DNA of 33,304 bases, from NCBI GenBank assembly GCA_003604995.1, contig QZJD01000039.1:1-33304 (forward strand). The letters are read 5' to 3'. A model generated the notes under the pieces. That model was not told the origin of the DNA. It searched no databases and saw only the letters and a list, made by a program, of their open reading frames with translations. The stretch is from Desulfobulbus sp. Lineage in GTDB: Bacteria; Desulfobacterota; Desulfobulbia; Desulfobulbales; Desulfobulbaceae. Numbering within the stretch: the stretch's first letter is position 1; each line of letters starts with the position of its first letter. Below, in pieces: positions 16,143 through 26,574 of this stretch. The position numbers were made by a program, and so were the translations under genes.

Positions 16143-16466
16143 ATGAGTGAAGAAAGCTGTCCCCTGCCGTCCCCCGGGCGGCCGGATGTTGCAACCATCT
16201 CTCTCCACCCAGCAACGAGGGTGGCGGATTACCAGGAAGCGATGAAGCTGGCCAAGGCGGAAGCGGAGCAGCGGCTGGGCGAATACATGCTGATGTCCTG
16301 GTACGATCGGGACCGGGACTACGAATCCCCGCCCAACACCACGGAATGCGCCGGCGACTGCGAAAAGAACGGCTATATCCTCTACGCCCTTCACCACGGG
16401 GCGACCCTTAAGGTGGACATCGAGGAGGGCAGGTTCATTTTTTACTTCACCCCGGTGGAGTGGTGA
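16143..16466 (+). CDS. AF1514-family (DUF5619-like) protein
   Basis: 107 residues, soluble, no signal sequence. The middle EQRLGEYMLMSWYDRDRDYE followed by a short C-x3-C and a closing G-A-T-L-K-V-D-I-E-E-G-R-F block match my memory of the AF1514 family, named after an Archaeoglobus fulgidus protein and common in sulfate reducers. No function is known. The ATG has GAGGTGA at a 7-base distance. It lies 26 bp behind the prepilin peptidase gene and 27 bp before the selenoprotein gene, so the three are probably one transcript. Confidence 0.7.
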   Translation: MSEESCPLPSPGRPDVATISLHPATRVADYQEAMKLAKAEAEQRLGEYMLMSWYDRDRDYESPPNTTECAGDCEKNGYILYALHHGATLKVDIEEGRFIFYFTPVEW

Positions 16467-16493
16467 AATTTTTTTATGCGCAAGGTGAACTCG

Positions 16494-16997
16494 ATGACTC
16501 CTGAGGAAATGCGGGCCAGGGCCATAGACCTCTTTGTCCGGCGGATGCACTGAAGCCAGGCCCTCCTGGTCGTGGGCCAGGAAAAGATGGGCGAAAAGGA
16601 TGACGGCGCGATTCGGGCCGTGGGAGCGTTCGGCGGCGGCATCGCCAGTTCCGGCGGGGTGTGCGGTATCCTGCTCGGCGGCGTCGCCGCGATTTCCAGC
16701 CTCTACAGTCGGGCCAGCCTGGTGGAAAAGGAAGATCCGCGTCTCTGGTCCCTGAGCGCCAAATTCCTGCGGGAGTTCGAAAAAATGACCGAGCCCTACG
16801 GCGGCAGCAACTGCCGGGATATCGCCCGGGTGGACTGGCGCGACCGGGACGCGGTCAAGGCCTACTACGGAGATCCCGACAGCCGGAGGCGGGAGTGCAT
16901 CCGCCTGGTCGGCGAGGCGGCCGAGGCCCTCGGCCGGCTGCTGGAGGCGGCAGCGGAAAGGAGTACCGGGCAACCTGAGCCTGAACGGAAGGGGTAA
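16494..16997 (+). CDS. C_GCAxxG_C_C family redox protein with UGA-encoded selenocysteine
   Basis: Read with UGA at 16551-16553 as selenocysteine, this gives 167 residues of the C_GCAxxG_C_C family, putative redox proteins defined by four conserved cysteines. Sec20 stands where the family has its first cysteine, in the C-S-Q-A motif (here U-S-Q-A-L). The others are C57 in GGVCGILLGG, C107 in GGSNCRDI and C135 in RRECIRLVG. The frame before the UGA (T-P-E-E-M-R-A-R-A-I-D-L-F) is a normal family N-terminus, and ATG 16494 has AAGGTGA at 16482-16488. A hairpin follows the UGA directly. If UGA were a stop, both the 19-residue peptide and a start at 16572 would lack sense. Substrate unknown; redox catalysis is inferred. 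Confidence 0.8.
16551..16581 (+). promoter_or_regulatory. Putative bacterial SECIS element
   Basis: Directly after the UGA (16551-16553) GGCCC (16559-16563) pairs with GGGCC (16574-16578). The stem extends past one A-A mismatch by two C-G pairs. The 10-nt loop, UCCUGGUCGU, contains GGU, as in the SelB-binding loops of formate dehydrogenase genes. Its size and distance from UGA are in the accepted bacterial range; alternative pairings exist. Confidence 0.6.
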
Positions 16998-21421: not shown

Positions 21422-22591
21422 TCAGGCTTCGACTTCGTGCTCCACCCCAACGGCGATCTTGTAGAGCACGGTCAGGATAAAGAACCCTGTGCACCACACG
21501 GCGATGGTGATCATAATTTCATTAAAGGTCGGGTAGTACTCCGTGATCTCCTCCAGCGGGGAGGGAACGAAGCCGCCCAGCACAAAACCGATGCCCTTGT
21601 CCAGCCACAGGCCGATGAACAGGGCGGCGGAGCCGATGGCCAGCCAGAAATCATTGCGGCGCGTATAGGGAATGGCCAGGAGGGTGAAGCCGGTGAGGGT
21701 CAGCACGACAAAGCCCCACATGAACGGCACCAGGTTGTTGTAGACGTGGCCGTGATGCTCCAGACCGAAGAACAGGTACTGCAAGGTATGCATGTGGCCC
21801 GGTATCTGGCTGTAGTAGCCGACAAAGAACTCCAGCATGACAAAGAAGGCGTTGATCAGCGCGGCATAGAGGATGATCGTCACCATCTTGTTCGTGGCCT
21901 CGCGACCAGCGTCAAAATGGGCCACCCGCTTGAGGATCAGGCTGACGAAGACGATCAGGGCCGGTCCCGCGGCAAAGGCGGAAGCCAGGAAGCGGGGGGC
22001 GATGATTGCGGACAGCCAGAAGTGCCGACCGGGCAGACCGCAGTAGAGCATGGCGGTGACCGTATGGATCGAAATGGCAAAGGGTATGGAAATATAGACG
22101 AAGATGTACACCCATTTCGGTGGTTTGACCTGTTTGCGCTCCGCGGTGAGGATCACCCAGCCGCAGATGATGTTCAGGAACAGGTAGCCGTTGAGCACGA
22201 TCATGTCCCAGAACAGCATGGAATTGGGTGTCGGGTGGAGGAGCACGTTCAGTGCCCGGATCGGCTGGCCAAGGTCGGCGATGATGAACATCAGACACAT
22301 GGTCAGGGCTGCGATGGCCAGGAATTCACCCAGGATGGTGATCCGGCCGAACACCTTGTAATTATGGACGTAGTAGGGCAGAACCAGCATCACGCCTCCC
22401 GCGGCCACGCCGACCAGGAAGGTGAAGTTGGAAATGTAGAGTCCCCACGAGACGTCCCGGCTCATGCCGGTGAGGCCGAGACCATAATTGAACTGTCTGA
22501 TATAACAGATCGCGCCGATGGCCATGAATGTGCCGAGAAATCCCAGCCACATCCAATAGTTGTTGTTTCCTTTCAGTGCTTTCTCAAACAT
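21422..22591 (-). CDS. dsrP: DsrP, NrfD-like integral membrane subunit of DsrMKJOP
   Basis: 389 residues with about ten membrane helices and no cofactor-binding histidine pattern of its own; NrfD/PsrC family. In DsrMKJOP it is thought to exchange electrons with the menaquinone pool and to pass them to or from the iron-sulfur protein DsrO on the outer side. The N-terminus GNNNYWMWLGFLGTFMAIG and the stretch SRDVSWGLYISNFTFLVG, where the quinone-pocket residues of the family lie, are typical. It is the last gene of the operon, 7 bp after dsrO, and is followed by the terminator. Confidence 0.95.
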   Translation of the reverse strand: MFEKALKGNNNYWMWLGFLGTFMAIGAICYIRQFNYGLGLTGMSRDVSWGLYISNFTFLVGVAAGGVMLVLPYYVHNYKVFGRITILGEFLAIAALTMCLMFIIADLGQPIRALNVLLHPTPNSMLFWDMIVLNGYLFLNIICGWVILTAERKQVKPPKWVYIFVYISIPFAISIHTVTAMLYCGLPGRHFWLSAIIAPRFLASAFAAGPALIVFVSLILKRVAHFDAGREATNKMVTIILYAALINAFFVMLEFFVGYYSQIPGHMHTLQYLFFGLEHHGHVYNNLVPFMWGFVVLTLTGFTLLAIPYTRRNDFWLAIGSAALFIGLWLDKGIGFVLGGFVPSPLEEITEYYPTFNEIMITIAVWCTGFFILTVLYKIAVGVEHEVEA

Positions 22592-22598
22592 GGCGACC

Positions 22599-23459
22599 TC
22601 ATATGATATAAAAGACTGATGGTTTGGTCCCGAGGGAAGGCTTCCGCTGCACAGTGTAGTTCTGCTTCAGAACCTGTCTGATCTCTGAATCGGGATCGTT
22701 CAGATCGCCGAAGACCATGGCCTTGCTTCCCCCGGTGGCTGCAACGCAGGCAGGTTCTTCTCCCCTGCCCAGCCGCTCCACGCAGAAGTTGCATTTTTCG
22801 ACAACACCGCGCATGCGGGTGGGGAAGAGCCGGTTCAGGTTGTTCATATCGAGACCGCCCTGCGGGTCACGGGGATCACGCCAGTTGAATGAGCGGGAAC
22901 CGTAGGGGCAGGCGGCCATGCAGAAGCGGCAGCCGATGCACCGGTGGTAATCCATGGCGACAATCCCGTTTTTGTCCTTGAAGGTTGCCTTGGTCGGACA
23001 GGCGCGAACGCAGGGAGGATTGGCGCAGTGGTTGCAGAGGACCAGAACCTGGTTGTTTTCCATGGTCTCGCTTAGATGGTACTGGCTGTTGTCCGGGAAG
23101 GCGTTTTCATGGCCGGTGAGCCAGATCCATTTGATCTCATCCTTGGGATCGGGAAACTGGGGGATGTTGTGCGAGACATTGCAGGCCTTGATGCACTCAT
23201 CGGCCAGTCCGGGCTGGGCAATGAATTTGCGCACGTCAATGACCATGCCGTACTGCTTGCCGGTGGGGACCACTTCCGCACCGTGCTCCGCCGGGGCCTG
23301 GCTTTCCGCACCATGACCGCCGGGCTGCACCTCCACGGCGGCTCTTGCCGCCAGCGGGCTCACCCCAGAGACAAGACGGTCGACCACTGCCGGAGCACCA
23401 AGACCTGCCAGGGTGGAGATGCCGGCAATTTTGAGGAATTCTCTTCTCTTCTTGTCCAT
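22599..23459 (-). CDS. dsrO: DsrO, periplasmic iron-sulfur subunit of DsrMKJOP
   Basis: 286 residues. A twin-arginine signal, KRREFLKIAG, with a hydrophobic stretch to about residue 39 sends the folded protein to the periplasm. Ferredoxin-like motifs follow: CIKAC, CNHCANPPCVRACP, CIGCRFCMAACP and CNFC with a later C, at least 13 cysteines, enough for several [4Fe-4S] clusters as in NrfC/PsrB. It should carry electrons between DsrJ and DsrP. The ATG overlaps the dsrJ stop (TGATG), with AAGGAGG inside the end of dsrJ, so translation is coupled. Confidence 0.95.
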   Translation of the reverse strand: MDKKRREFLKIAGISTLAGLGAPAVVDRLVSGVSPLAARAAVEVQPGGHGAESQAPAEHGAEVVPTGKQYGMVIDVRKFIAQPGLADECIKACNVSHNIPQFPDPKDEIKWIWLTGHENAFPDNSQYHLSETMENNQVLVLCNHCANPPCVRACPTKATFKDKNGIVAMDYHRCIGCRFCMAACPYGSRSFNWRDPRDPQGGLDMNNLNRLFPTRMRGVVEKCNFCVERLGRGEEPACVAATGGSKAMVFGDLNDPDSEIRQVLKQNYTVQRKPSLGTKPSVFYII

Positions 23460-23857
23460 CAGTTTACATCCTCCTTGGTTGCTTCCTCAACAGGCTCCAG
23501 ATGGCAGTCCCAGCAGTATGGGGTAACAGCCGCATAGGTATGGCACACATCGCAGAATTTCTTCTTGCTGACGTGGCACTGCATGCAGGCGTTCTGCAGG
23601 CTCTTCTGGTACATGGTTCCTTCCACGGAAAAAAAGGATCTGTCTTCCGTGCGCAGGACTTCATCTCTCCACTGATTCAGCGTCTTCATGTGGTTGGGGC
23701 GAATCTCACTCAGCGGCAGAACGCACTGTTTTTTGTCCTTGGGCAACTCCGCCTTTGGTGGGTCCGCGGCAACTCCGTGGTTGAACCAGATGGGAAATGT
23801 GACAATCAGGACAAAGATGATCAGTCCCGGGATGATTTTACCGCTGTCGTACATCAC
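23459..23857 (-). CDS. dsrJ: DsrJ, triheme cytochrome c of DsrMKJOP
   Basis: 132 residues. An uncleaved N-terminal anchor lies at about 8-27, with three c-type heme sites CMQCH (91-95), CDVCH (102-106) and CWDCH (115-119) packed at the end. C45 in KKQCVLPLSEIR stands where the cysteine that ligates one heme (His/Cys coordination) is known in Allochromatium DsrJ. It acts on the periplasmic face; its electron partner is unsettled. GGAGGAAG precedes the ATG. It lies 23 bp after dsrK. Confidence 0.95.
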   Translation of the reverse strand: MMYDSGKIIPGLIIFVLIVTFPIWFNHGVAADPPKAELPKDKKQCVLPLSEIRPNHMKTLNQWRDEVLRTEDRSFFSVEGTMYQKSLQNACMQCHVSKKKFCDVCHTYAAVTPYCWDCHLEPVEEATKEDVN

Positions 23858-23880
23858 TCTTCCTCCACTTATGCCGTGAA

Positions 23881-25521
23881 TTAAAGGATAGTCCGCAGAC
23901 CATCTTCAAGTTCCTGCCGTTGCTCGCCTTCCATGACCAGCGAGTTGCCCACCAATTCGGAGAGTCCGCAAACCCTGACCTGCGGCACCCAGTAATTCAC
24001 GAGCGAAGTCAGGGTGGCCCGGTCGATAGCGCAGACGCAGCCCAGGGTGTTGACCCCGTGCTTCTCGTGGACATACTTGACGGCATTGGCCCGGGGCAGG
24101 CCGCCGCGCATGCGCAGTTCCATGATTTCGTCGGTGTTGAGGCCGGTGCCGGATCCGCAGCAGAAGGTTTTTTCCCGGATGCAGTTCTCGGGCATCTCGT
24201 ACCAGTTGTTCACCACATTGTCGAGTATGTAGCGCGGTTCCTCGAGCAGGCCCATGCCCCGGGCGGTGTTGCAGGAGTCATGCCAGGTGGCGACCACATG
24301 GTCGTTGCGGCTCTTGTCGATGTTAAGCTTGTTGTTCTTGATCAGGTCGGCGGTGAACTCGCTGACGTGGATCATCTTGGTGGAACGGGCATTGTCGAAG
24401 ACCGTGCCGGTGATCGGCGATTTCGGCACCTCAAGGAAGTCGGCCGGACCGTTCATGGTGTCCATGTACTGATGCAGTACGCGCCACATGTGCCCGCACT
24501 CGCCGCCGATGATGAATTTGACGCCCAGGCGCTTGGCCTCGGCATACATCTTGGCGTTCAGCTTCTTCATGGTCTCGTTGTTGGTGAAAAGACCGAAGTT
24601 GCCGCCCTCGGATGCATAGGTGGACCAGGTATAGTCCAGGCCGATGTGATGGAAGAGCAGCAGGTATCCCATGGCCGTGTACAGACCGGGCTCGGCGAAC
24701 ACGTCCGCGGAAGGGGTGATGAACAGGATTTCGGCGCCCTTGCGGTTGAAGGTCGGCTCCACCCGGATGCCGGTGAGGTTTTCAATGTCGTCGCACAGGA
24801 AGGAGACGTTGTCCTTGAAGGTGTGCGGCTGCAGTCCCATGTGGTTGCCGGTCCGGTTGGAATTGGAGGCCGGTTCCAGGATCCAGTTGATGCCAACGCC
24901 AACGGTGTGAAGGAGTTCGCGCAGCATGATCGTCACCTCAGCGGTATCGATACCGTAGGGGCAGAAAACCGAGCAGCGCCGACACTCCGTGCACTGATAG
25001 GCGTACATGAACCACTCCTTGAGTACGCCCACGGTCATTTCACGACCGCCGGCCATCTTGCCCAGCAGCTTGCCGGCCAGGGTGAAATCGTTGCGGTAGA
25101 CTGAGCGCAGGAGTTCGGCGCGGAGTACCGGCATGTTCTTCGGATCGCCGGTGCCCAGGAAGAAGTGGCACTTGTCGGCGCAGGCGCCGCAGCGCACGCA
25201 GCAGTCCATGAAGATCTTCAGGGATCGGAACTTGTCGAGGCGTTCGCGCAGGCCGTTGAGGATGATTTCCTTCCAGTTCTCGGGCAGCTTCCAGTCATCG
25301 TCTTCCGGCCACCACTCACGGGCGTTCGGAAAACTTAAGCCCTGCTGCGCGTTCATGTACTCGACCTTTTCCTTCTTGGCCGGGTAGGCAAAGTTGCCGG
25401 GCTTGAAGACCGCCGGCACGTCCATCCAGTCCTTGGTGGGGTAGGACCCGGTCATCAGGGACGGGCCCTGGACAACACTCTTTGCTAACTTGTCAACCTT
25501 GACTACTTTTACAGCTCCCAT
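23881..25521 (-). CDS. dsrK: DsrK, HdrD-like catalytic iron-sulfur subunit of DsrMKJOP
   Basis: 546 residues, cytoplasmic. Two [4Fe-4S] motifs, C108-x2-C-x2-C-x3-C118 and C177-x2-C-x2-C-x3-C187, are followed by a CCG-type domain with GGECGHMW, HDSCN, FCCGSGTGLN and the closing GCVCAID. In heterodisulfide reductase HdrD this domain holds a special cluster that splits disulfides; in sulfate reducers DsrK is believed to reduce the DsrC trisulfide made by sulfite reductase. AGAAGGA precedes the ATG. 33 bp separate it from dsrM. Confidence 0.95.
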   Translation of the reverse strand: MGAVKVVKVDKLAKSVVQGPSLMTGSYPTKDWMDVPAVFKPGNFAYPAKKEKVEYMNAQQGLSFPNAREWWPEDDDWKLPENWKEIILNGLRERLDKFRSLKIFMDCCVRCGACADKCHFFLGTGDPKNMPVLRAELLRSVYRNDFTLAGKLLGKMAGGREMTVGVLKEWFMYAYQCTECRRCSVFCPYGIDTAEVTIMLRELLHTVGVGINWILEPASNSNRTGNHMGLQPHTFKDNVSFLCDDIENLTGIRVEPTFNRKGAEILFITPSADVFAEPGLYTAMGYLLLFHHIGLDYTWSTYASEGGNFGLFTNNETMKKLNAKMYAEAKRLGVKFIIGGECGHMWRVLHQYMDTMNGPADFLEVPKSPITGTVFDNARSTKMIHVSEFTADLIKNNKLNIDKSRNDHVVATWHDSCNTARGMGLLEEPRYILDNVVNNWYEMPENCIREKTFCCGSGTGLNTDEIMELRMRGGLPRANAVKYVHEKHGVNTLGCVCAIDRATLTSLVNYWVPQVRVCGLSELVGNSLVMEGEQRQELEDGLRTIL

Positions 25522-25554
25522 AGTTCTATCCTTCTCACCTTTTACCTTGCTGAC

Positions 25555-26574
25555 TTATTCGCCAGAGTTTTCGGGCAATCCTTTTTCCACGGGGATATCG
25601 TTCTCAACCATGAACTCCCTGAACTCATCCTCATAGCCCGCGTAGGAGTGCGGCCGGATATCCGGGTTCCAGGGGTTGATGTGGCGGACCATCCGGGAGT
25701 TGTTGGGCAGGTTTCTGGTCGGGCTGAGGAAGACCCCGCCCATGTGCATCAGCTTACTGTAGGGGAAGTAGGCCAGCAGGGTGGAGACCAGGAACAGGTG
25801 GATGTAGAAAATGGAGCTGATATCGGTCAGAATGGCCGGCTGGAAGGTCGCCAGCCCCACGGCCAACCGCTTGATGGAAATGATGTCCACGTCCGTCCGG
25901 ATGTAGAAGCGCATCAGAATTCCGCTGACCGCGATTCCGAAGATCAGGAACAGCGGAAAATAGTCGTTGGCCAGGGAAATGTACTTCACCTGGCGGTTGA
26001 CCAGCCGTCGGCCGAAGAGCAGGAGGAGTCCCAAAACGATGGTCACGTCGGTCAGGTACATGGTGGGCGCCCCGATCTGGAGGATGCTGTCCATGAACTC
26101 CACCGCCAGGACGAAGCCGGGCACCGGATCAAGAAACAGGCGCAGATGGCGCAGGACAATGGTCAGAAAACTGTAATGAAACAGGATGCCGAAGAGCCAC
26201 AGCCATTTGCTGGACTCGTAGGTCAGCTTGGGGCCGTCGTGAATTTCCGCCTTGGTATTGCGCCAGAGGGAGCGGAACAGAACGATCTCCAGAAACATCC
26301 TGGCCACCACCTGGGAGGTGTTGACCGGGGCCTCCAGCTTGTCGTACTTGATCCAGGGCAGGGTATATCCCTGCCCGCAGGTGGTAGGGATCCTGAACGG
26401 CACCGGAGACTTTGCCCATTGCACGACCCGGTAGCAGAATCCGATGACGAAGGTGGCGATGGCCGCGTAGGGCACCACCACTCCGAACAGATACTGCATG
26501 CCGGGAATCTTGGATCCGATCCATGCAATGAGCACCAAGGCAATAACTGCCGCCATCGGGAAGATGTACTTCAT
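25555..26574 (-). CDS. dsrM: DsrM, heme b membrane subunit of DsrMKJOP
   Basis: 339 residues with about six membrane helices, NarI/HdrE-like, expected to bind two hemes b and to oxidise menaquinol, passing electrons to DsrK inside the cell. Histidines suited for heme ligation lie in helices near GILFHYSFLTIVLRHLR and FYIHLFLVSTLLAYFPYSK; the latter stretch leading to LMHMGGVFLSPTRN is typical of the family. The tail is soluble and acidic. GGGAG precedes the ATG. It is the first structural gene of the operon, 133 bp after an RsbRD-N-domain gene. Confidence 0.94.
   Translation of the reverse strand: MKYIFPMAAVIALVLIAWIGSKIPGMQYLFGVVVPYAAIATFVIGFCYRVVQWAKSPVPFRIPTTCGQGYTLPWIKYDKLEAPVNTSQVVARMFLEIVLFRSLWRNTKAEIHDGPKLTYESSKWLWLFGILFHYSFLTIVLRHLRLFLDPVPGFVLAVEFMDSILQIGAPTMYLTDVTIVLGLLLLFGRRLVNRQVKYISLANDYFPLFLIFGIAVSGILMRFYIRTDVDIISIKRLAVGLATFQPAILTDISSIFYIHLFLVSTLLAYFPYSKLMHMGGVFLSPTRNLPNNSRMVRHINPWNPDIRPHSYAGYEDEFREFMVENDIPVEKGLPENSGE

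Follow-up and report, generated by a model that had tools for sequence, protein, structure and literature searches.

A predicted selenoprotein of the C_GCAxxG_C_C family in Desulfobulbus sp., with selenocysteine in place of the first conserved cysteine

One question raised by this locus is how a TGA should be read when it is the single in-frame interruption, at codon 20, of an otherwise open frame running from ATG to TAA. Does the protein start only after this codon, has an ordinary cysteine codon been damaged, or is selenocysteine (Sec) inserted? The locus lies in the window, by which is meant the whole 33,304-nucleotide stretch of Desulfobulbus sp. DNA that was analysed, and its features are collected in Table 1. 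Judged from sequence and conservation, the gene almost certainly encodes a genuine C_GCAxxG_C_C (PF09719) selenoprotein, nearest to the DVU_1555-like branch, for which a route of UGA decoding and a redox role are proposed below.

Table 1. Features of the predicted selenoprotein gene (window coordinates)
Feature	Position	Strand	Basis or remark
Predicted selenoprotein gene, C_GCAxxG_C_C family, 167 aa	16494..16997	+	ATG start, TAA stop 16995-16997; translation with TGA=U
In-frame UGA, predicted Sec, at residue 20, where the family has its first conserved Cys	16551..16553	+	Identical codon is UGA in 34 further close homologues and TGC/TGT in 16 more
Cys57, G-x-x-C-G motif	16662..16664	+	Translation; invariant 67/67
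Cys107	16812..16814	+	Translation; invariant 67/67
Cys135	16896..16898	+	Translation; invariant 67/67
Probable ribosome-binding site AAGGTG, 6 nt 5' of the ATG	16482..16487	+	Sequence
Truncated ORF, GTG start, without the Sec residue; expected standard gene-caller product	16572..16997	+	Upstream in-frame stop is the TGA at 16551-16553
Putative bacterial SECIS hairpin	16564..16582	+	8-bp stem (16564-16571 with 16575-16582), apical loop GUG 16572-16574; 18 nt after UGA

The gene and its family

A first-pass annotation had placed the UGA at the family's first invariant cysteine, with the other three cysteines intact and with both a ribosome site and a family-like N-terminus ahead of the codon. 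All of this is borne out, in that U aligns at codon 20 in every one of the 35 UGA genes read, opposite 16 cysteine versions, the three downstream cysteines are present in the translation with TGA as U, the AAGGTG site is in place, and nearly all of the UGA genes share an N-terminus of the M-x-P-E-x-M type. Relatives too have purine-rich sites 5' of the ATG, and the ATG itself is conserved among them. The prediction that standard calling would begin at 16572 and so lose the active site also holds, since the longest ORF under translation table 11 starts at this GTG and lacks the first 26 residues of the protein.

In profile searches the 167-aa product scores 75.4 bits with PF09719 (cut-off 27) and 52.2 bits with TIGR01909 (cut-off 47.4). 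It is like the C-GCAxxG-C-C family (seleno)proteins described by these two models in length, in the G-x-x-C-G motif and in the four family cysteines, one of which may be Sec, at positions 20, 57, 107 and 135. The top-scoring NCBI model is NF045669 (DVU_1555 family C-GCAxxG-C-C protein), which is matched over nearly its full length; because the score of 73 bits falls under the cut-off of 103, the product is placed in a sister branch of the DVU_1555 family and not within it. There is also a weak likeness, of 30 bits over most of the protein, to the HUGP/GUXX-star fusion selenoprotein NF045501, from which it differs in lying far under the cut-off of 325 and in leaving unmatched the last part of a profile of 236 positions.

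How new is such a protein? The first-pass annotation had called it an unannotated selenoprotein, of which the selenoprotein part stands, while "unannotated" and the novelty that it implies have to be tempered. The name of TIGR01909 at NCBI is already "C-GCAxxG-C-C family (seleno)protein", so that Sec forms are recognised, and for PF09719 two selenoprotein forms, 1 and 2, appear in reviews (PMC9312934; PMC13188914). As selenoproteins are already on record for the family, the protein is a genuine addition to a known kind and its novelty is low. New here are a DVU_1555-like branch, conserved and with a SECIS of its own, and a clear switch between Sec and Cys.

Selenocysteine and cysteine across the order

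In 258 genomes of the order, searching with read-through brought up a relative in 154. The best matches carry an internal TGA, which puts the placement of the UGA far from chance; others have none. DNA was read for 64 genes in two clades of the family, and 67 sequences were aligned with Sec written as Cys; written in this way, none of the four Cys/Sec columns varies (67/67). Within the clade of the present gene, codon 20 is TGA in 35 of 51 genes (its own included) and TGC or TGT in the remaining 16. The second clade has its own switch, with UGA at the first conserved cysteine in 7 genes (L070-L076) and Cys in 6 (L077-L082), and at this position no residue other than Sec or Cys occurs among the 64 genes of the two clades. 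The in-frame UGA thus aligns with the cysteine of homologues, as is asked of a bacterial selenoprotein, and the alignment proposed in the first-pass annotation, with Cys expected at position 20, finds it there in 16 close homologues and UGA in 34 others. In a midpoint-rooted tree of the 64 genes all 35 Sec genes fall together in a single group with support, and just two Sec/Cys changes are needed, which argues that the UGA is stable. Elsewhere in the order, TGA likewise takes the place of the first conserved cysteine in more distant C_GCAxxG_C_C relatives (L084, L085 and L087), in the setting V/A-U-A/S-E.

These comparisons bear on two other readings of the locus. The first, that a shorter functional protein is made from the GTG at 16572 and the frame upstream of the UGA goes untranslated, could draw on the open start that this codon offers six codons past the UGA. 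The 19 codons ahead of the UGA are nevertheless conserved as protein, with changes that are mainly synonymous; against the nearest relative there are 8 synonymous codon changes and 1 nonsynonymous, and the stretch therefore evolves as coding sequence. The Cys homologues, moreover, are open through the UGA site without a break, and the GTG itself forms the apical loop of the hairpin. Homologues starting downstream of the UGA, with neither Cys nor Sec at the site, would have spoken for such a protein, but the close homologues start upstream and have one or the other. A shorter product is accordingly very improbable.

Still less credible is a pseudogene or sequencing error, in which the UGA would be a nonsense change of an ordinary cysteine codon (TGC/TGT to TGA). 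TGC and TGA do differ by a single base and the assembly is fragmentary, a draft in 108 contigs that is 74% complete. However, 34 other species, belonging to several families of the order, share this UGA with frames intact on both sides, which is decisive, and the hairpin is kept in UGA genes only.

Decoding of the UGA

On the evidence of conservation, ribosomes would read the UGA as Sec by means of SelB, a tRNA-Sec (UCA) and the hairpin that immediately follows the codon. The sequence after the UGA, UCCUGGUC-GUG-GGCCAGGA, forms 8/8 stem pairs with a folding energy of -12.3 kcal/mol. In the published bSECIS model a G stands in the first two positions of a loop of 3-9 nt, often followed by U/G, on a stem of 4-16 bp and 16-37 nt from the UGA (PMC13188914), and the hairpin fits this in loop (GUG), stem (8 bp) and distance (18 nt). 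Rfam SECIS_1 (RF00031) has no match in this genome, but its silence says nothing, since it has none in any of the control genomes either.

Synonymous codon choice does not account for how well the hairpin is held in UGA genes, and the sister group's Cys genes lack it. The eight pairs are kept at 88-89% in UGA genes versus 32% in the sister-group Cys genes, which form 2.6/8. When synonymous codons are redrawn, the UGA genes fall from the observed 7.09/8 pairs to 5.64 (0/300 redrawings as high) and from -9.5 to -4.3 kcal/mol, and sliding the helix into other registers gives fewer pairs than the actual one. Covariation is weak, with changes on both sides in one pair only, because the hairpin sequence is constrained by the amino acids as well. 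The second clade has a different hairpin at nearly the same place (6.7/7 pairs versus 4.9 randomised), in which the alanine codon of the loop is GCG in 7/7 Sec genes and in 0/6 Cys genes, all six having GCC or GCA; this synonymous difference marks the loss or gain of the SECIS. The Cys genes of that clade keep 5.5/7 stem pairs (3/300 randomisations as high), and this partial stem might be a SECIS remnant.

The selenium machinery, for which the first-pass annotation had advised a search, is present in full: selA, selB and selD exceed their cut-offs, and selC is represented by a tRNA-Sec (72 bits, cut-off 47) with the anticodon tca according to ARAGORN. Two formate dehydrogenase alpha genes over cut-off each have one in-frame TGA, which makes it very probable that this genome uses Sec. 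Formate dehydrogenase-type genes at three of its loci, C68:5429-7489 (L112), C37:10073-12085 (L113) and C40:14565-15008 (L118), each contain a single in-frame TGA and are likely to be further selenoproteins; contig C37 also bears selB. That the UGA instead stands for Trp or some other amino acid, or is passed by untargeted readthrough, is barely conceivable, given that many window genes end in TGA, so that UGA is a normal stop here, that Cys is the one residue with which it alternates in homologues, and that the Sec machinery and a SECIS-like hairpin are both present.

Possible function of the protein

What might the selenoprotein do? Its neighbours in the window are a type IV prepilin peptidase, DUF5619 and a RecD2 helicase. 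The DUF5619 (PF18505) gene lies just upstream, at 16143-16466, next to the selenoprotein gene, an arrangement that among 22 loci recurs solely in the nearest relative (65% identity). No conserved neighbour was found across the 22 loci, none being common to more than a few, and the gene context consequently gives no function; for a gene that stands alone in this way, a general redox duty seems likelier than a pathway-specific one. Further along, on the minus strand at 21422-26574, is a five-gene set that by its gene order resembles dsrMKJOP, tests having covered only its DsrK-like Fe-S domains; the set would point to dissimilatory sulfur metabolism.

The product would be a small, mostly helical thiol/selenol redox protein, in which Sec20 (within H-U-S-Q) may act as the attacking selenolate. 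Among the invariant cysteines, all three of them candidates for the resolving residue, Cys57 in the G-V-C-G motif is the likeliest, and Cys107 and Cys135 may make up a second pair. This scheme, in which Sec20 attacks and a cysteine resolves, draws on general knowledge of selenoproteins and on the invariance of the columns, and is held with much less assurance than the assignment of Sec. AlphaFold2 models of the protein alone and with one relative, both of low confidence (pLDDT 50-54), consist entirely of helices, with residue 20, Cys57 and Cys107 sitting where a helix begins or close by, a placement that resembles many redox active sites and offers only a hint. A PDB sequence search gave no solved relative, its two weak matches (E 0.24 and 0.69) being due to chance.

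A tentative and rather doubtful suggestion is that the branch represents a distinct Sec enzyme with a substrate of its own, kept by vertical descent in this sulfur-metabolising order, and that a sister clade lost, or never gained, Sec and kept the enzyme. If so, the pair would show the benefit of selenium at one catalytic residue. In genes of this sort gene callers truncate the protein at the UGA and the active-site residue is lost; the evidence suffices for correcting the annotation of 42 or more genes of the order. The 35 Sec and 16 Cys natural homologues provide a clean set for testing what Sec contributes in a family of unknown function.
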